This document shows positions 12,791 through 34,280 of a stretch of 38,133 nucleotides of DNA, piece after piece. The DNA is taken from positions 1-38,133 of the forward strand of contig JAHEMF010000028.1 of the NCBI GenBank assembly GCA_024643795.1. The letters run 5' to 3'. Within the stretch, counting starts at the first letter, position 1; every line of letters begins with the position of its first letter. Both the position numbers and the translations under genes were made by a program. Source of the DNA: Bacteroidota bacterium. GTDB taxonomy: Bacteria > Bacteroidota > Bacteroidia > AKYH767-A > OLB10. The notes below the pieces were generated by a model. That model was not told where the DNA came from. It searched no databases and was given only the letters and a program-made list of their open reading frames with translations.

Positions 12791-13516
12791 ATGAAAACTA
12801 TCTCAAATTCATTAGTAAAAGGGTTATTGTTTGTGGCCCTTATCACAGCGGTTTCAATCTTTAATACTTATGCTCAAAAGATAAAGGGTAGTGGCACTCT
12901 AACATCACAGGATCGCGATGTTGCATCATTTAATAAAATTTCAGCCGGAGGAGTACTGAAGTTGATTCTCATACAAAGTGTGAAAGAGAGTGTAACTATA
13001 AAAGCTGAAGATAATATCATTGATCATATTACCACAAAAGTTTCCGGTCATGAGCTGGTTATTGGAATGAATGAAAACTTGAGTCCATCCGAAGATATAA
13101 CAGTAACTATATATGCAAAAAATGTAAAGGGGCTTGATATTTCCGGAGTAGTTGATTTCGAAACACAGGGAACTTTAAAAACAGATGAGTTGGAGATCGA
13201 TTGCAGTGGCGCTTCTACTATGCATGCCGATATTTCTGTTAACAACCTTGAAGGTGATATCAGCGGTAGTTCAAAGATCACTTTGAGTGGCAATGCCGGT
13301 AGTGTTGATATGGATATAAGCGGCGCTGTTGTTTTAAATGCTTTTGACTTGAAAACAGGTAAATGTGAATTTGAAGTTTCAGGTGCTGCCAAATGCGAGA
13401 TCAGCTGTGACGAAGAGCTTGAGGTTGAAGTGTCAGGTGCTGCCACGTTGGTTTACAAGGGAGATCCTAAAGTTGAAAAGTCGGTTAGTGGCGTGGCTAC
13501 TATCAGCAAAAAATAA
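12791..13516 (+). CDS. Secreted head-GIN-domain (DUF2807) protein
   Basis: A 241-residue protein with a signal peptide at about 1-29 ending NTYAQ. One GIN-type auto-transporter head domain (DUF2807) fills the rest. Its imperfect repeats centre on the motif (D/E)(I/V)SG(A/S), seen as LDISGVV, IDCSGAS, GDISGSS, MDISGAV, FEVSGAA, VEVSGAA and SVSGVA. Each repeat probably forms one turn of a right-handed beta-solenoid. There is no barrel, so it is probably periplasmic or surface-exposed. Family function is unknown. It shares an ECF-type promoter element with the sigma-factor locus some 18 kb away, which suggests co-regulation with the second GIN protein at 32892. It converges on the DUF3570 gene with a nine-base gap. 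Confidence 0.85.
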   Translation: MKTISNSLVKGLLFVALITAVSIFNTYAQKIKGSGTLTSQDRDVASFNKISAGGVLKLILIQSVKESVTIKAEDNIIDHITTKVSGHELVIGMNENLSPSEDITVTIYAKNVKGLDISGVVDFETQGTLKTDELEIDCSGASTMHADISVNNLEGDISGSSKITLSGNAGSVDMDISGAVVLNAFDLKTGKCEFEVSGAAKCEISCDEELEVEVSGAATLVYKGDPKVEKSVSGVATISKK

Positions 13517-13525
13517 GGTCGGCTG

Positions 13526-14845
13526 TCAATCCATCACGAATTTAAATCCGAGAGATATCATGTTGGCTTCAAATGATATGTTTCTGTCGTATCGCATATA
13601 CTTGACGTCAATACTCTTTAGTCCGAACAACCAAATGTGAAACTGGGCAAAGATATCAGTGTATGCTACTCCAAACCCATACTGATTGGCACTGAAACCT
13701 GACAAGTCATAATCTGAAGTATAATATTTTTCGGATGTATGATGTTTGTTATATGGCTTAAAATATTTGGCGGCCTTCTGATCATAGTATCTGTATGATG
13801 GTAACAATGTAAATTTGGAGGAGATCTTTACAGGCACTTCAATACTGGCCGTATGTGAAGATATGTTCCAGTCGTCGAAATAATAACGGTAGTATAATCG
13901 GAGTACAAATATCTGGTTGATGTAATAGTGAAGCCTTCCGCCTATAGCCGTTTTAGTGCGTGAATCCGGTAACCGTTCAATATCATCTGCTAAATGGAAA
14001 TTCTGGATATAAGAGTCGGCTATATCTTCAAAGTAAACTCTTTGGAACGGTGTAGAAAGTAAGCCGCTTTGCATAACATAATCCAAAGCCAGAGAAGTCT
14101 GTAGTTTTCTTGAAAGTATTTGCGAGAATCCGATGCCTAAAGAAACAGAGTTTCGGCCTTTGTTGTTGAATTCCTTGAATAACGGACTATAATCAGGGTT
14201 ACCCGTTATGGCATTATTTTGGAAGAGAAAGTCATTAATGCCAGACCCACCGGATTCAAAGGGACGGAGTTCGATAGGGTATATAGCGCTCCACTGATCA
14301 AAATAAGCTTCACCATGAAAACTCAGTTCAGTGTTTTTATCATTGAATAACATTGAATAACTACCTCCAAAACCTGCTGAGAAATAGTCGAACTCAGATG
14401 ACACAGAAATTTTTGCAGACCATATTCTGTTTCTGTTATCGGAACTATGTGTATAGGTGCCGTTGAAGTTGGCCCATACATCGGATGAGGAAGCACCTGT
14501 TGAAGCCTGAAACGGATCGGCATCACCTTTTCCGTCAAATGGGTCTATGTTGGAAGAAGATGCGGAAGAATATGCTGATATTCCTGCATCAATGGTCAAC
14601 ACATCATCATCATTTAATGGAACAGCAACAACAAATGTTGGAGTTACATCTTGTAACTTCTCTGTTCCTACGCCACCTGAAACCGCAGCATGGTCACCTT
14701 TCTGGGAATAATAGCTGGCAAGAAAATCTATTTCGGTTGATTCTAGCACTCTCTTTTTATAAACGGTGGCGCTATCAGCAGGAGTATTATCAGCAAGAGC
14801 TGAAAATGTAGCAAGTGAAAAAAGTATTACACAGAGCGTTTTCAT
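13526..14845 (-). CDS. DUF3570 outer-membrane beta-barrel protein
   Basis: A 439-residue protein with a signal peptide (MKTLCVILFSLATFSALA). Alternating aromatic/polar strands follow to the C-terminus, which ends ISLGFKFVMD. The profile fits an outer-membrane beta-barrel and the DUF3570 family. It is last of four tightly packed minus-strand genes (thioredoxin, apbE, DUF4266, DUF3570), eight bases after the DUF4266 stop. Residues 116-119 are TGAS, which matches the core of the ApbE flavinylation motif (S/T)GA(S/T), although the usual Asp three residues earlier is Gln. It may be a surface partner or conduit for the redox proteins of the cluster; that role is inferred. Confidence 0.87.
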   Translation of the reverse strand: MKTLCVILFSLATFSALADNTPADSATVYKKRVLESTEIDFLASYYSQKGDHAAVSGGVGTEKLQDVTPTFVVAVPLNDDDVLTIDAGISAYSSASSSNIDPFDGKGDADPFQASTGASSSDVWANFNGTYTHSSDNRNRIWSAKISVSSEFDYFSAGFGGSYSMLFNDKNTELSFHGEAYFDQWSAIYPIELRPFESGGSGINDFLFQNNAITGNPDYSPLFKEFNNKGRNSVSLGIGFSQILSRKLQTSLALDYVMQSGLLSTPFQRVYFEDIADSYIQNFHLADDIERLPDSRTKTAIGGRLHYYINQIFVLRLYYRYYFDDWNISSHTASIEVPVKISSKFTLLPSYRYYDQKAAKYFKPYNKHHTSEKYYTSDYDLSGFSANQYGFGVAYTDIFAQFHIWLFGLKSIDVKYMRYDRNISFEANMISLGFKFVMD

Positions 14846-14853
14846 AGATAGGG

Positions 14854-15063
14854 TTAGTTACAACCACAGCCTCCGCCTGTTTTACCACCATTGGCACCGG
14901 ATGAAGATTCTCTGTACGATTGAAAATTCAGTTCAAACCGGTCAACTTTTCTGGTGGATAATTCCATATCCGGGTCATTCAGGTTTACTTTCTGATATTC
15001 TTTCACCACCTGGCATGATGACATGAGAAACAAGGCGACAATCAAAACATACAATCGTTTCAT
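14854..15063 (-). CDS. DUF4266 small lipoprotein with C-terminal CGC
   Basis: A 69-residue lipoprotein. The signal peptide ends in the lipobox MSSC, with Cys17 as the lipidated residue. The middle DPDMELSTRKVDRFE is polar. The tail is glycine-rich and ends GGGCGCN, with Cys66 and Cys68. From memory this ending is shared by DUF4266 proteins. Residues 52-58 read ESSSGAN, close to the flavinylation motif DxxSGAT, but the acceptor threonine is replaced by Asn. The ATG overlaps the apbE stop (ATGA) and the DUF3570 gene follows after eight bases, so the three are probably translated together. It is likely anchored in the envelope facing the periplasm. Function unknown; a cofactor- or metal-carrying peptide is a fair guess. 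Confidence 0.87.
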   Translation of the reverse strand: MKRLYVLIVALFLMSSCQVVKEYQKVNLNDPDMELSTRKVDRFELNFQSYRESSSGANGGKTGGGCGCN

Positions 15064-16046
15064 AGTTTACTATCTAGTTTAATATTTTCAGATATATGAA
15101 TTTTTCCATTGTTGTCGATCATTATACATTCAATTTCCGGCAACTGGTTTACCCTGTCGATCCCGGCTTCTACCCCCATTACAAAAACGGAGGTAGCTAG
15201 CGCGTCAGCGAGCTCTGCGCTGGGTGCGAAAACCGTTGCACTGACCACTTCAGTGACCGGATAACCGGTTCGCGGATCTATTATGTGGGTATATCGCTTG
15301 CCACCTATTATCACGTACTTTTCATAGTTGCCGGAAGTAACCACAGCACGGTTATACAATGGCAGCAACGCAAATACTTTATTCTTGTTCATTGGATTTG
15401 TGATGGCCACCTTCCATTCAGTACCATCCGGCTGAACACCCCAGGTGTTCATATCACCTGAAGCATTGATGATCCCTGATTTCACATCATTTTCAATTAA
15501 AAGTGCTTTGGCTTTATCTGCTGCATATCCTTTGCCAATCGCGCCAAATCCGATCTTCATTCCTTTGTTTGGTAAATAAACAGAATGGTCTGTTTTATTC
15601 ATCATTACCCTCTTATATCCTACCTGCTTTACTGAAGCAGCTACCAGTTCCGGCGAAGGTAGGTCAGTCATGCTTCCATCAAATTTCCAGATCTTATCCA
15701 TGGCCGCGTAAGTGATGTCGAATGCCCCGTCTGTAAGATTGGAGATCCTGATCGACCGTTCAATAAGATCATATAACTCAGGATCGACCTTAACCGGACC
15801 AATACCAGCACTAAGATTGATAAGAGACGTTTGAGAAGCACTATCCCATGAAGAAATCAAAGTTTCTATTCTCCTGATCTCTGTTACCGCCAAAGCAACA
15901 AACTCTGCAGCTTGAGATGAATCATTGGCAACCACCGTTATTTCAAAACGGCTACCCATCAACTTCAGTGTTTCTTTATAAATGATATCTGGAAAAGCAA
16001 AGTTTGCAAGGCAGCTGAAAAGGACCAAAAGGATGCACTTTTTCAT
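15060..16046 (-). CDS. apbE: FAD:protein FMN transferase
   Basis: A 328-residue exported enzyme (signal peptide of about 19 residues) that attaches FMN from FAD to Ser/Thr of periplasmic or membrane redox proteins. Family motifs seen are MGSRFEITV near the start and the flavin-binding AIGKGYAADKA. SGNYEKY, HIIDPRTGYPV and the metal-site block AELADALATSVFVMG complete the set. Length is standard. It lies between a thioredoxin gene (six-base gap) and the DUF4266 gene (ATGA overlap). This suggests a dedicated substrate in the same cluster and not a general housekeeping role. No Nqr or Rnf genes, the classical targets, are in the window. Confidence 0.93.
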   Translation of the reverse strand: MKKCILLVLFSCLANFAFPDIIYKETLKLMGSRFEITVVANDSSQAAEFVALAVTEIRRIETLISSWDSASQTSLINLSAGIGPVKVDPELYDLIERSIRISNLTDGAFDITYAAMDKIWKFDGSMTDLPSPELVAASVKQVGYKRVMMNKTDHSVYLPNKGMKIGFGAIGKGYAADKAKALLIENDVKSGIINASGDMNTWGVQPDGTEWKVAITNPMNKNKVFALLPLYNRAVVTSGNYEKYVIIGGKRYTHIIDPRTGYPVTEVVSATVFAPSAELADALATSVFVMGVEAGIDRVNQLPEIECIMIDNNGKIHISENIKLDSKL

Positions 16047-16052
16047 GGTTGC

Positions 16053-16487
16053 TTAGAAGGACGTCAGTAATATGATATATTCAGCCGGGGATATTTTTTT
16101 ATAACCTGACTCACCCAGTACCTTGCCTGATCCATCAAGCACAACTACAAATGGGAAGTACCCATCGCGGTTATATTTTTCGGCCAAACCTTCATTGTGC
16201 TCTTGCTGATCGGGGGAAAGGGCATTTTGCTTTTTTCTCGGAAAATCCGCTTTTAACATCACAAAATGGTCTTTTGCATATGCTTGAAACTCCTGCGAAC
16301 TCCATATTTCCTTTTCTAACTTGATACATGGTGCACACCAGTCTGAGCCTTGAAAAACGAGTATAATGTTACGATCAAGTTCCGAAGCCTGTTTTTTGGC
16401 TTCATCTATATTTGTCAGCCAGTCCTGTGCAGGTGTGTGCATTGAGATGCCCATCAGGATCAGTATAAACAAAACAAGTTTCTTCAT
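16053..16487 (-). CDS. Periplasmic thioredoxin-fold protein
   Basis: A 144-residue protein with a cleavable signal peptide (about 1-20, ending HTPAQ) and a thioredoxin fold of the thioredoxin_7 / DsbD-gamma type. The active site WCAPC is at residues 50-54. The cis-proline region is YFPFVVVLD. It is the first gene of the four-gene cluster. It could keep the cysteines of the DUF4266 protein (Cys66 and Cys68) in the right redox state; this is inferred from neighbours. No TAnnTTTG or ECF-type box is obvious in the 206 bp upstream. Confidence 0.88.
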   Translation of the reverse strand: MKKLVLFILILMGISMHTPAQDWLTNIDEAKKQASELDRNIILVFQGSDWCAPCIKLEKEIWSSQEFQAYAKDHFVMLKADFPRKKQNALSPDQQEHNEGLAEKYNRDGYFPFVVVLDGSGKVLGESGYKKISPAEYIILLTSF

Positions 16488-18602: not shown

Positions 18603-21600
18603 GTGAGGTCAGTCTGTGCTAAAGTGTCTGATCTGACCTTAACTCCAGTCAGTTTGATTATAAGAGCTTTTTTCGGCAAATGTGCATTCTGTTTTGCAAT
18701 AGTAATTGCTTTATGCAATGCGACTGTTGTAAAGGCTCAGGGGCTTTCTAATTTGCGCAAGAAAACAATTGCTTTTACTCCTGGCGACACTATTTCACTG
18801 GACACCCTTTCTATTTTGCCTGGTACTTTTCATGTATTTCAGCCATCAGGCGCTTCCATTCCGGATCCGGGGTGGATCGAAGTTGATTTTCCAAATGCAA
18901 CAATGCTTTTCCGCCAGCCAACCGACTTGCCCACGCCTGACAGTATAGTGGTCATGTATCGTGTATTCCCGATCTTACTTACCAAGCCGGTGATCAATCG
19001 AAGCCGTGAAATCATAGAGAAAGATTATCAAGGCCTTTACAATCCTTATGCATATTCTTCACAATCCACCAGAGAAAGTTTTTTTCAAACAGATGGGTTG
19101 AGCAAGAATGGGAATATATCCCGGGGCATCAGTTTTGGCAATAATCAGGATGTTGTTGTAAATTCAAGTTTCAACCTTCAGCTGTCTGGGAAGCTCAGTG
19201 ATGATGTTGAGATACTCGCAGCTATTACCGATAATAATATCCCGGTACAACCGGATGGGAATACACAGCAGATACAGGATTTCGACAAGGTTTTTATCCA
19301 GCTATCCCGCAACAAAAGCAAGCTTATCGCAGGTGATTTTGAAATACAGAAACCGCCAGGGTACTTTATGAATTATTTCAAAAAAGGGCAAGGCGCGTTA
19401 GTCTCATCTGAATATTCAGTTTCAAAAAAAAGTAAAGCGGAGATGTCAACTATGGTAAGTGGTGCAGTATCGAAAGGCAAGTATGCAAGGAATGTTATTG
19501 CTGGTATTGAGGCCAACCAAGGACCTTACCGATTAACCGGTTCAGAAAATGAAACATTCATCATTGTTTTGTCCAACACAGAAAAGGTCTTCATTGATGG
19601 TGTGGAATTAAAAAGAGGCGAAAATTTCGATTATGTAATTGACTACAATACTGCTGAATTAACGTTTATGCCTAAGGTTCCGATAACAAAGGATAAGCGG
19701 ATCGTTGTTGAGTTTCAATATTCTGATAAAAATTATGCACGCACCATGTTCGTGCTTAACCAACAATTCAAAAGTGAAAAGCTTCAACTGAATGCAAATG
19801 TTTATTCCGAACAGGATAGTAAAAACCAGCCACTATTGCAGGATCTTCGTGAAACAGACAAGCTATTACTAGCTTCGGTTGGCGACAGTATTAATGACGC
19901 AGTAGTTCCGAATATTGATAGCGTAGCATTTAGCGACTCAGAAGTGTTATATGAGAAACTCGACTCTTTAGGTTTCACGGTTTATAAATACTCCACGGAC
20001 TCCACTAAAGCTCATTTTAGATTGGGTTTCAGTTATGTTGGGCCTGGAAGAGGGAACTACATACCCGAAAGCAGTAGTGCCAACGGAAGAGTATATAAAT
20101 GGGTTGCACCGGTATCAGGAATACTGCAAGGAAGTTATGAGCCGGTTATTCAGCTTATCGCACCCAGAAGGCAGCGTATGGTGACTCTTGGCGGGAAAAT
20201 GGACATCAATAAAAACAATACTGTATTCCTTGAAACTGCATACACCAACTATGATGTTAATTTATTCAGTTCTAAAGATAAGGCTAACGATAACGGTTAT
20301 GCAGTATACGCAGGATATGATAACAATTTAGATCTAAACTCCTCTGAAAAGAAAAAGATATCTCTAACAACAGGAGTTAAATTTGAGCATATAAGTGAAA
20401 ATTTCATCCCGATTGAACAATACAGGCCTATAGAATTTACGCGAGATTGGAATCTAGGTACCGGAAATTATACTGGACAGGAAGACCTTGGGTCTATAAA
20501 GCTTTCACTGATAAATGCCGGATTTTATAATATTTCATACACTTTTAAAACGTTTCTGAAAGGAAGTGACTATACCGGGCTTATGAATATGCTGGACAGT
20601 AGAGTTTCAACAAAAACATTTTCCCTTATATCAAGAGCCAGCTACTTGTCTACGGATGCTATCGCATCAAAAACGAATTTCATTAGATCTTTTACAGACC
20701 TCTCAAATAAGTTTGGCGCTGCCCGAATAGGAATAATATACGATCAGGAATATAATTTGATAAAGGACGCAACTACTGATGATATTCAATTGAACAGTTA
20801 TTCATACGACAAGATGCAGGTATATGTAAGCTCATCAGATACATCAAAAATCAGATACAGGTTAGAGACTGGCCGCAGATATGACAGCAATGCGCTGGCA
20901 GGAAAACTTAAAGGATCAACCGTAGCTGATGAGGCCGGTGGCCAGGCAGAGTTTATCATCAATCCAAGAAACAGGTTGAAGCTGACCGCCAGTTACAGGA
21001 ACCTTACGGTGACAGATACTGCAGTGACAAAGATTTTACCTGAGGAAACATTCCTGAGTAGACTAGAATACAATACAGTTTTATTAAAAGGAATGATAAG
21101 CTCTCAGACTATATATGAAGTTGGTACTGGGCAAGAACTTAAGAGAGAGTATGCATTTGTGGAAGTTGCCCCCGGTACAGGCACACACACTTATGCCGGC
21201 GATTATAATGGTAATGGAGTTAAAGACCTGGATGAATTTGAAATAGCTGCTTTCTCCGACCAGGCCGATTATATCAAAGTATACATACCTACCAACGAAT
21301 ATGTAAAATCCCGCACCAATCAATTCGGAGAGGTCCTTACGTTAAACCCGGCAGCATTTCTTGACCAGTCGGTTAAACTCAACAAATTCATAAGTAGATT
21401 TTCAAATACTACGACATACAGGGTTGAGAATAAAACACTGGATGACGATATAGCACGATCATTGAATCCATTCAGAGAAAATATAGAAGATACATCATTG
21501 ATCTCCACAAACTCAGCGTTTAGAAACACTCTTGCATTCAATCGCAGCGCATCTAAATTCGGAATAGATTTTACTATTCTGAATAATCGCAACAAAGCAT

Positions 21601-22154
21601 TGCTGACCAATGGTTATGAAGCCAGAAAACTAGGAAGTTATATTTTTAATACCCGATGGAATATCACGAAAGTTTATAGCATACAATTGCGTAATGAGTT
21701 TGGTGAAAAATCCAACAGGTCTGATTTCTTTTCATCGCGTGATTATGTGATAAAGTATCAGGAATTAGAACCACGATTCAGTATTCAGCCCGGAATATCT
21801 TTCAGAGCAACCTTGTCTTACAAACTCTCAATCAAAGAGAACACCTTCAGTGATCTTGAAGAAAAGGCTACGCAAAACAATGGAGGAATAGAATTAAAGT
21901 ACAGTTCTGTAAAAAAAGGAATAGCACTTGCCAGGTTCAATCTGATAAATATTGATTACAACGCATCTGAAAACACTTCGATTGCTTACGAAATGCTTGA
22001 CGGATTAAGAAAAGGCACGAATCTCACCTGGGGGCTTTCCTTTCAAAGAAATCTGGGTAATAATATTCAGATAAACCTGAACTATGACGGAAGAAAATCA
22101 GAAGGAACTTCACCCGTACATATAGGCAGTGTACAGGCAAGAGCATATTTTTGA
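18603..22154 (+). CDS. Very large outer-membrane beta-barrel protein
   Basis: A protein of up to 1183 residues without a usable ATG near the front. GTG at 18603 gives the longest form. TTG at 18654 would give a compact signal peptide starting IIRAFFGK and ending VVKAQ, and may be the true start. The body has a repeat-like region with VFIDGVELKRGENFDYVIDY and ITFMP-like strands (about 325-370), a pattern also seen in SprA-type gliding/type IX proteins. Long aromatic/polar strands then run to a terminal Phe (QARAYF), the outer-membrane barrel signature. Contains EFEIAAF after a DYNGNGVKDLDE calcium-loop-like segment. Function unknown; related to Bacteroidota surface proteins. Confidence 0.82.
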   Translation: MRSVCAKVSDLTLTPVSLIIRAFFGKCAFCFAIVIALCNATVVKAQGLSNLRKKTIAFTPGDTISLDTLSILPGTFHVFQPSGASIPDPGWIEVDFPNATMLFRQPTDLPTPDSIVVMYRVFPILLTKPVINRSREIIEKDYQGLYNPYAYSSQSTRESFFQTDGLSKNGNISRGISFGNNQDVVVNSSFNLQLSGKLSDDVEILAAITDNNIPVQPDGNTQQIQDFDKVFIQLSRNKSKLIAGDFEIQKPPGYFMNYFKKGQGALVSSEYSVSKKSKAEMSTMVSGAVSKGKYARNVIAGIEANQGPYRLTGSENETFIIVLSNTEKVFIDGVELKRGENFDYVIDYNTAELTFMPKVPITKDKRIVVEFQYSDKNYARTMFVLNQQFKSEKLQLNANVYSEQDSKNQPLLQDLRETDKLLLASVGDSINDAVVPNIDSVAFSDSEVLYEKLDSLGFTVYKYSTDSTKAHFRLGFSYVGPGRGNYIPESSSANGRVYKWVAPVSGILQGSYEPVIQLIAPRRQRMVTLGGKMDINKNNTVFLETAYTNYDVNLFSSKDKANDNGYAVYAGYDNNLDLNSSEKKKISLTTGVKFEHISENFIPIEQYRPIEFTRDWNLGTGNYTGQEDLGSIKLSLINAGFYNISYTFKTFLKGSDYTGLMNMLDSRVSTKTFSLISRASYLSTDAIASKTNFIRSFTDLSNKFGAARIGIIYDQEYNLIKDATTDDIQLNSYSYDKMQVYVSSSDTSKIRYRLETGRRYDSNALAGKLKGSTVADEAGGQAEFIINPRNRLKLTASYRNLTVTDTAVTKILPEETFLSRLEYNTVLLKGMISSQTIYEVGTGQELKREYAFVEVAPGTGTHTYAGDYNGNGVKDLDEFEIAAFSDQADYIKVYIPTNEYVKSRTNQFGEVLTLNPAAFLDQSVKLNKFISRFSNTTTYRVENKTLDDDIARSLNPFRENIEDTSLISTNSAFRNTLAFNRSASKFGIDFTILNNRNKALLTNGYEARKLGSYIFNTRWNITKVYSIQLRNEFGEKSNRSDFFSSRDYVIKYQELEPRFSIQPGISFRATLSYKLSIKENTFSDLEEKATQNNGGIELKYSSVKKGIALARFNLINIDYNASENTSIAYEMLDGLRKGTNLTWGLSFQRNLGNNIQINLNYDGRKSEGTSPVHIGSVQARAYF
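18606..18639. repeat. Inverted repeat at the 5' end of the large outer-membrane protein gene
   Basis: AGGTCAG at 18606-18612 and CTGACCT at 18633-18639 form a perfect seven-base inverted repeat with a 20-bp spacer. It lies between the GTG and TTG start candidates, which suggests this segment may be leader or operator sequence and not coding. Confidence 0.4.
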
Positions 22155-32891: not shown

Positions 32892-34280
32892 ATGAAAAAT
32901 TATAAAGTAATAACATTAGTATTTGCACTTCTTATTTTATCTCAGTTGGAAGTGTATTCTCAAACAGGAGCTGCAAACATCCGGAAAGTAACGATCAGTA
33001 ATTCAGCAACCGTTGAATATGTAAAAAGTGAGACATCTAAATTGTTGGTTAATGGACTTGAATATGATCAACCATCTTCCAACTACTATAGGATCAAGAA
33101 TGGCGATGAATTAATTGTTCAGGGAAAGGAGGATGTAAAAATTTCTGTTTATGCTCCCTTTTTAGATGAGATCTCCATCCCTGGAACAGGGAAATTCTAT
33201 ACCGATGATATCATCCAGACAGACAATCTTGTTCTTGATGTTTCAGGAGTTGGAAAACTTGACCTTAATGTTATTGTAAAGCGGTTGGATCTTGATATCA
33301 GTGGAAGTGGGAAAGTTGAAATAGAAGGTAAATGTGATGAGCTAAATGCAGAATTATCAGGGGCGGGTAAGCTGTCTGCATCTGATCTTGAAGTAAACAA
33401 GGCAACTTTCAATATTACCGGTGCAGGGAAAGCCGTAGTTGATGTGCGTGAAGAATTGAATGCAAACATCAGCGGTGCAGGTTCTGTAAGCTATGTGACG
33501 AAACCGCCTGTGGTAAACAAAAATGTGACCGGCATTGGTGTGGTTGGTGAAGGAACTGAAATGGGAAATGATACCACCCGGATAATGCTAGGCACCACTC
33601 GGATCCTTATCATCGGTGAGGATGATAAATTTGAGATCAAGCGCGATGACGGCCTGGTTAAAGGGCACTGGGCAGGATTTGAAATGGGAGTTAATATGCT
33701 GGTGGATGACAAGTTTTCCAATGAAGCTCCGCAAGGGTATGATTTTCTTGATCTGAATCTGAATAAATCAGTTGCAGTAAATTTAAATTTGATCGATTAT
33801 GAAGCCAAACTTAGTGGCAGAAATGTGATGCTGATAACTGGACTTGGGGTATCCTGGAACAACTACAGATTCAGATCAGATTTGTACTTGGACCCTGAAT
33901 CAAAGGAGGTTTCAGCAATAAACGATTCACTCTCCTATTCTAAAAATAAACTGGTTGTAAGCTATTTAAATGTACCATTACTCTTTGAATTCAACACAAG
34001 TGAATTCACTAATCGGAGCGTTCATTTGTCTGTCGGAGTAATTGGCGGGTTAAGATTAGGGTCTCATGTAAAGTTGGTCAGATCTGCTGACGGAGACAAA
34101 TACAAGAAGAAGTTGTATGATAACTTTAACTTAAACCCTTTCAAGTTTGATGCTTCAGTGAGATTCGGATATAGAAACTTTACGATATTCGGAACATATT
34201 CGCTGAATAACTTTTTCAAAGACAGCAAAGACCCTGAATTACATCCGGTAACGGTAGGAATAAGGTTAGTAGGCTGGTAA
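32892..34280 (+). CDS. GIN-domain (DUF2807) protein fused to an outer-membrane beta-barrel
   Basis: A 462-residue protein with a signal peptide (about 1-24, ending LEVYSQ). A DUF2807 GIN domain follows (about 27-220) with the repeated I-S/T-G-(A/S)-G motif (LDVSGVGK, LDISGSGK, AELSGAGK, NITGAGK, ANISGAG). A C-terminal region of about 220 residues has barrel-type strands and ends in Trp (GIRLVGW), as in PorT-like proteins. The GIN part resembles the secreted GIN protein at 12791. It follows the anti-sigma gene by 53 bp and carries its own ECF-type promoter, so it is likely an output of the sigma factor. Function unknown; an envelope adhesion or stress role is plausible. Confidence 0.85.
   Translation: MKNYKVITLVFALLILSQLEVYSQTGAANIRKVTISNSATVEYVKSETSKLLVNGLEYDQPSSNYYRIKNGDELIVQGKEDVKISVYAPFLDEISIPGTGKFYTDDIIQTDNLVLDVSGVGKLDLNVIVKRLDLDISGSGKVEIEGKCDELNAELSGAGKLSASDLEVNKATFNITGAGKAVVDVREELNANISGAGSVSYVTKPPVVNKNVTGIGVVGEGTEMGNDTTRIMLGTTRILIIGEDDKFEIKRDDGLVKGHWAGFEMGVNMLVDDKFSNEAPQGYDFLDLNLNKSVAVNLNLIDYEAKLSGRNVMLITGLGVSWNNYRFRSDLYLDPESKEVSAINDSLSYSKNKLVVSYLNVPLLFEFNTSEFTNRSVHLSVGVIGGLRLGSHVKLVRSADGDKYKKKLYDNFNLNPFKFDASVRFGYRNFTIFGTYSLNNFFKDSKDPELHPVTVGIRLVGW

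Follow-up and report, generated by a model that had tools for sequence, protein, structure and literature searches.

Four genes on the minus strand occupy positions 13526 to 16487 of the window, the whole 38,133-nucleotide stretch of Bacteroidota DNA analysed here, and are separated in order by gaps of +6, −4 (an overlap) and +8 bases (Table 1). All four Pfam matches lie far over Pfam's cut-offs; the signal peptide and WCAPC motif of the thioredoxin (Trx) are evident in its translation, and WC[AG]PC is present in most relatives. The gene order, strand and spacing of the initial annotation agree with the open reading frame coordinates, and its protein types (an exported CxxC thioredoxin, an exported ApbE, a lipoprotein ending CGCN and an outer-membrane barrel) were borne out by Pfam, the translations and barrel prediction. 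The cassette is flanked upstream by an OmpA-family protein and downstream by a convergent DUF2807 gene, with no adjoining metal or respiratory genes. The CXXCH heme motif is absent from all four translations, scanning the window against Rfam and for tRNAs gave no matches, and a viral collection search found no relative. DUF2807 genes lie in the window at 12791-13516 and 32892-34280, the second of them as a fusion with an outer-membrane barrel domain, and an open reading frame of 1183 residues (18603-22154) has no Pfam match at 1e-4.

Table 1. Features of the cassette, in window positions.
Feature	Position	Strand	Basis and remarks
Exported thioredoxin-like protein, 144 aa	16053..16487	−	Pfam PF13899 Thioredoxin_7, 2.3e-16; WCAPC at residues 50-54 (C51, C54)
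ApbE, FAD:protein FMN transferase, 328 aa	15060..16046	−	Pfam PF02424, 6.7e-84; signal peptide
DUF4266 lipoprotein, 69 aa	14854..15063	−	Pfam PF14086, 5.9e-20; lipobox MSSC; Gly-rich tail, C-terminus CGCN
Codons of C-terminal CGCN of DUF4266 (CxC thiol pair)	14857..14868	−	Translation
DUF3570 outer-membrane beta-barrel, 439 aa, predicted flavinylation substrate	13526..14845	−	Pfam PF12094, 2e-44
Ser96 of DUF3570, candidate flavinylation site 1 (SSAS)	14558..14560	−	Aligned to Chlorobium [ST]GAS site 1
Ser119 of DUF3570, predicted flavinylation site 2 (TGAS, canonical)	14489..14491	−	Alignment

Hundreds of such clusters were reported by Meheust et al. 2021 (PMC8238504). Their DsbD clusters with ApbE held DUF3570 (227), PF13899 thioredoxin (183) and DUF4266 (221), and 316 more held all four genes with DsbD not linked (PMC8238504). 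Experimentally, the DUF3570 protein of Chlorobium luteolum was flavinylated by its own ApbE, and flavinylation stopped only if the serines of both [ST]GA[ST] motifs were changed (PMC8238504). The words barrel and porin do not occur in the main text of that paper, the only one returned for DUF3570 or DUF4266 by our search, which was limited and is not proof of absence from the literature. The initial annotation had called the cassette one without a known function, which holds for the physiology and fails for the cassette and its flavinylation, both published in 2021 (PMC8238504); its idea that ApbE matures a partner within an envelope redox module is supported. The cassette of the window is a real, conserved and ordinary member of an already described kind of system, with the same four families and the same DUF4266 CxC as the published system and, as in 316 of its clusters, no linked DsbD. 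New here are the proposed surface-flavin topology, the site 1 variant, the split in ApbE location, the thioredoxin-ApbE fusions and a Vibrio operon with DsbD.

Given its repeated order and the matching genomes, the arrangement is not chance. DUF3570 was found in 54 of 198 genomes of the phylum and DUF4266 in exactly the same 54 (Fisher p ~6e-50, ignoring the relatedness of the genomes); ApbE was present in 53 of the 54, versus 131 of 198 overall. The order Trx-ApbE-DUF4266-DUF3570 recurs in 81 of ~110 longer loci. A Chlorobiaceae-like family (f17; family name inferred) has Trx-DUF4266-DUF3570-ApbE, and a megaplasmid of Vibrio sp. THAF191d (L171:3243-8033) carries Trx-DUF4266-DUF3570-ApbE-DsbD as one operon. 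The Vibrio operon is unannotated in the collection's table, and its DUF4266 is longer (154 aa). A Hymenobacter plasmid also carries the cassette, with DUF3570 annotated as two open reading frames (L172:5890-7154), possibly through a frameshift; a plasmid search with a Chlorobium-family DUF4266 query gave no matches. Co-occurrence across genomes, a check suggested together with the pairing of DUF3570 and DUF4266 in other phyla and one whose failure would have refuted the proposal, was strong, and the four families are found together in Bacteroidota, Neomarinimicrobiota and Vibrio. Tandem or extra DUF3570 genes, some without their own DUF4266, occur in L055, L025 and L085, and several are possible per f17 genome. 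Within the window's own family, a search of 24 genomes found DUF3570 in only 2, with 30% identity between the two; identity to marine Flavobacteriaceae reaches 67-68%. The gene tree groups the window with a Bacteroidetes MAG at a support of 88, which is weak. Patchy presence and high identity at a distance suggest spread or repeated loss, and the weakly supported tree favours neither.

The ApbE domain is full length (266/266 profile positions) and retains the motifs GAIGKGYAAD, TSGNY, HIIDP and ADALAT. It is the single ApbE of the window's genome (2.88 Mb, 99.8% complete), in which no FMN_bind protein (NqrC/RnfG type) was found, and because of this pairing of one ApbE with no FMN_bind protein the enzyme very probably serves the DUF3570 barrel, and may also have a further undescribed substrate. 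An ApbE serving only Nqr/Rnf elsewhere in the genome, raised earlier as a second condition that would refute the proposal, was rejected on the same absence. The partner had been given as either the lipoprotein or the barrel: the barrel stands, by experiment on its Chlorobium homologue (PMC8238504), and the lipoprotein falls, having no Ser/Thr acceptor. FMN on DUF4266 was rejected since its sole ApbE-like stretch, SGAN, has Asn at the end, not Ser/Thr. As in Nqr/Rnf (NqrC and RnfG, with FMN_bind), ApbE-dependent covalent FMN is predicted here on Ser/Thr of an envelope protein; the substrate in the window is an outer-membrane barrel, whereas theirs belongs to an inner-membrane complex.

Flavin sites were compared in a sample of 148 DUF3570 homologues weighted to Bacteroidia (effective number of sequences, 38), in which Ala95-Ser96 is invariant. 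Site 1 reads TSAS (83), SSAS (25), SGAS (19), TGAS (18) or ASAS (3), and site 2 mainly SGAS (97), TGAS (14) or SSAS (13); [ST][GS]A[ST] matches 98% of homologues at site 1 and 85% at site 2, where the strict [ST]GA[ST] still matches 75%. At site 1, [ST]SAS (108/148) prevails over [ST]GAS in most Bacteroidia, so that a strict [ST]GA[ST] search misses this site in three quarters of the sample. Against the [ST]GA[ST] of the published system (PMC8238504), site 2 of the window (TGAS) fits and site 1 (SSAS) is a variant with neither the consensus Asp at −6 nor the consensus Gly at −2, which counts against our best reading; a Gly-to-Ala change reduced flavinylation in another target (PMC12052999). 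The invariance of Ser96, a candidate flavinylation site of [ST]SAS type, suggests that it still matters. No Cys occurs past residue 60 in 126 of the 148 homologues, and in a protein so nearly free of Cys the evident redox group is the flavin, not a thiol.

A hydrophobic N-terminal segment was called in ApbE from all 81 members of the window's clade and 3/3 of a Hymenobacter-like family, and from 0/18 Chlorobiaceae-like, 0/10 second Bacteroidia clade and 0/2 deeper members, by a simple hydrophobicity rule applied to the longest possible open reading frame, not by SignalP. The window's ApbE, with its signal peptide, thus differs from those of the Chlorobiaceae-like family of the experimentally tested protein (18/18 without). 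The Vibrio ApbE likewise starts without one, and at L003-L062 (f17) and L063-L087 many ApbE lack one even in the longest frame. Lineages with a signal-less ApbE presumably attach FMN in the cytoplasm, prior to export, which would fit flavins whose final place is beyond the outer membrane.

A Chitinophagales MAG (L114:5260-6762; 500 aa) and a Neomarinimicrobiota MAG (L146:5343-6710; 455 aa) encode thioredoxin and ApbE as a single chain, and such fusions in two distant MAGs support joint action of the two proteins. The fusions and the tight coupling of both genes would also be expected if thioredoxin and DUF4266 served assembly, keeping ApbE or the barrel competent while ApbE works, with no electron flow; we regard this as very improbable, because a nearly Cys-free DUF3570 offers a thiol chaperone few targets and because DsbD is present in the Vibrio operon and in 285 published flavinylation clusters (PMC8238504).

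DUF3570 has a signal peptide and is predicted to form an even-stranded outer-membrane barrel. The AlphaFold2 model is confident (31 homologues; pLDDT, 84; pTM, 0.80) and has 16 strands, counted from the DSSP string; its turns are short where the two termini lie, and its long loops are at the opposite end. Its PDB matches are outer-membrane barrels (Z up to 21) led by BamA, PgaA, PelB and BcsC. The 16-strand export barrels PgaA, PelB and BcsC are among the best whole-barrel matches (Z 19-21), and with PgaA the alignment runs from close to the N-terminus through to the C-terminus; identity is 10-14%, with neither a scaffold domain nor polysaccharide genes, so the fold alone is shared. Long loops of outer-membrane barrels are by convention extracellular, and it is by this convention alone that we take the long-loop end of DUF3570 to face outward. 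Ser96 immediately follows strand 3 and Ser119 immediately precedes strand 4, which would place both at this end, probably close together. Strand residues with conservation above 3 bits make up 31 of the 104 in the half taken as extracellular and 5 of the 111 in that taken as periplasmic (p 7e-7), the halves being drawn from the strands of the predicted model. Residues conserved in at least 95% of homologues are A95, S96, E151, D153, Y154, S156, D183, G261, P293, R296, Y322, D324, R352, Q356 and Y419, those on strands facing the lumen as judged by alternation of hydrophobicity; we read this as a pocket, charged and conserved, in which the flavins would be held at the outer mouth.

The C-terminus of DUF4266 is CGCN in 135 of 138 homologues and CGCG in the other 3. 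In surface lipoproteins of Bacteroidota, an acidic cluster after the lipid cysteine is the surface-export signal; it was found right after the lipid cysteine in 0 of 127 DUF4266 homologues, which suggests that DUF4266 lies on the inner face of the outer membrane. This absence, the periplasmic look of thioredoxin, ApbE and DUF4266, and the nearby genes for VIT1, ferritin and TonB-dependent receptors that some genomes have are consistent with flavins that face the periplasm or lumen only, exchanging electrons with a periplasmic partner or with a pore-imported substrate, e.g., chelated iron, so that none leave the cell. Such an arrangement seems unlikely given the position of the two flavin serines, and of almost every conserved residue, at the long-loop end, opposite the termini.

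DUF3570 being Cys-poor, no redox groups are evident other than its flavins and the thiols that thioredoxin and DUF4266 carry. When DUF4266 and DUF3570 of locus L102 were modelled as one read-through chain (the two in frame, TAA read as Gln; a modelling device that implies nothing about the organism), the DUF4266 body was predicted at ~85 pLDDT and its CGCN tail at <50, i.e., disordered, so that contact between tail and flavin site is neither supported nor excluded. The window's genome has one DsbD (713 aa), whose presence, like the Vibrio operon, favours the reading that follows; its place on another contig, unlinked to the cassette, counts against that reading.

We give a probability of roughly 0.55 to the cassette being an envelope electron-transfer module, in which electrons pass from DsbD to thioredoxin, the DUF4266 thiols, two surface flavins and an external acceptor. 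Flavinylation of a homologous barrel rests on the published experiment, and our computations show the conserved cassette and sites, the apparently dedicated ApbE, the barrel fold with its polarised conservation, the fusions and the operon with DsbD; the sidedness, the acceptor, and the sequence in which and direction in which electrons flow are the parts that we infer. ApbE, exported in the window's lineage, would move FMN from FAD onto Ser119, and probably Ser96, in the periplasm, before or during insertion of the barrel into the outer membrane. The mature barrel would carry two flavins close together, where the adjacent strands 3 and 4 end, at an extracellular mouth above the conserved charged lumen. 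Inner-membrane DsbD would supply electrons to the periplasmic thioredoxin, which would pass them through the CxC thiol pair on the flexible DUF4266 tail to the flavins, and these would pass them to an acceptor on the cell surface or beyond it, for which an oxidised metal, e.g., Fe(III), is the most plausible candidate. That DUF3570 is itself a heme-free trans-outer-membrane conduit, with two covalent flavins at its mouth fed by a DsbD-thioredoxin-DUF4266 thiol relay, is a more tentative proposal, to which we give somewhat less than even odds.

Iron is our best guess for the acceptor, in line with the published link to VIT1 (25 clusters; PMC8238504). Several lineages encode VIT1, ferritin or a Rieske protein immediately upstream of the cassette, and VIT1 lies at most 9 kb from DUF3570 in 8 of the 15 genomes holding both in the window's own class, which contains Flavobacteriaceae; one of these VIT1 genes is broken, and the linked genomes come from three genera, which leaves fewer independent cases than 8/15 implies. 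VIT1 is absent from the window's genome, which, like the absence of an adjoining metal gene, counts against our best reading. The Rieske protein, small and of [2Fe-2S] type, is directly upstream of thioredoxin in L071, L076, L075, L161, L163 and L165, and VIT1 precedes its gene in L071 and L076. In Flavobacterium-type loci L153, L155, L156, L157 and L169, DUF3570 is followed by a response regulator, a histidine kinase, a small His-rich protein (in L157, 132 aa with no Pfam match) and an RND pump.

A role in metal stress would also account for neighbours of this kind: acting together with RND efflux and a CusRS-like two-component system, the module would reduce or in some other way handle a toxic metal, copper or a different one. 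Genes for the pump and for both two-component proteins lie downstream of DUF3570, with that for the small protein, in several Flavobacterium loci, and RND/membrane-fusion genes adjoin DUF3570 in Maribacter. RND and two-component genes recur near DUF3570 but are abundant in these genomes, which counts against this role, and they are absent at the window; we consider the role quite unlikely.

If the electron-transfer reading is right, the system resembles porin-cytochrome conduits (MtrCAB type) in combining a barrel with redox groups that could pass electrons across the outer membrane, and differs from them in using flavins and a thiol pair instead of heme. To our knowledge, the known electron routes across the outer membrane rest on multiheme cytochromes, and covalent flavins placed at the outer mouth of a barrel would, if true, be a different solution. 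From the split in ApbE signal peptides, FMN appears to be attached before export in some lineages and after it in others. Sites, side and partners are now specific enough for testing, and the conduit, if true, would be a flavin-and-thiol counterpart of porin-cytochrome conduits across Chlorobiaceae, Bacteroidia, Neomarinimicrobiota and Vibrio.
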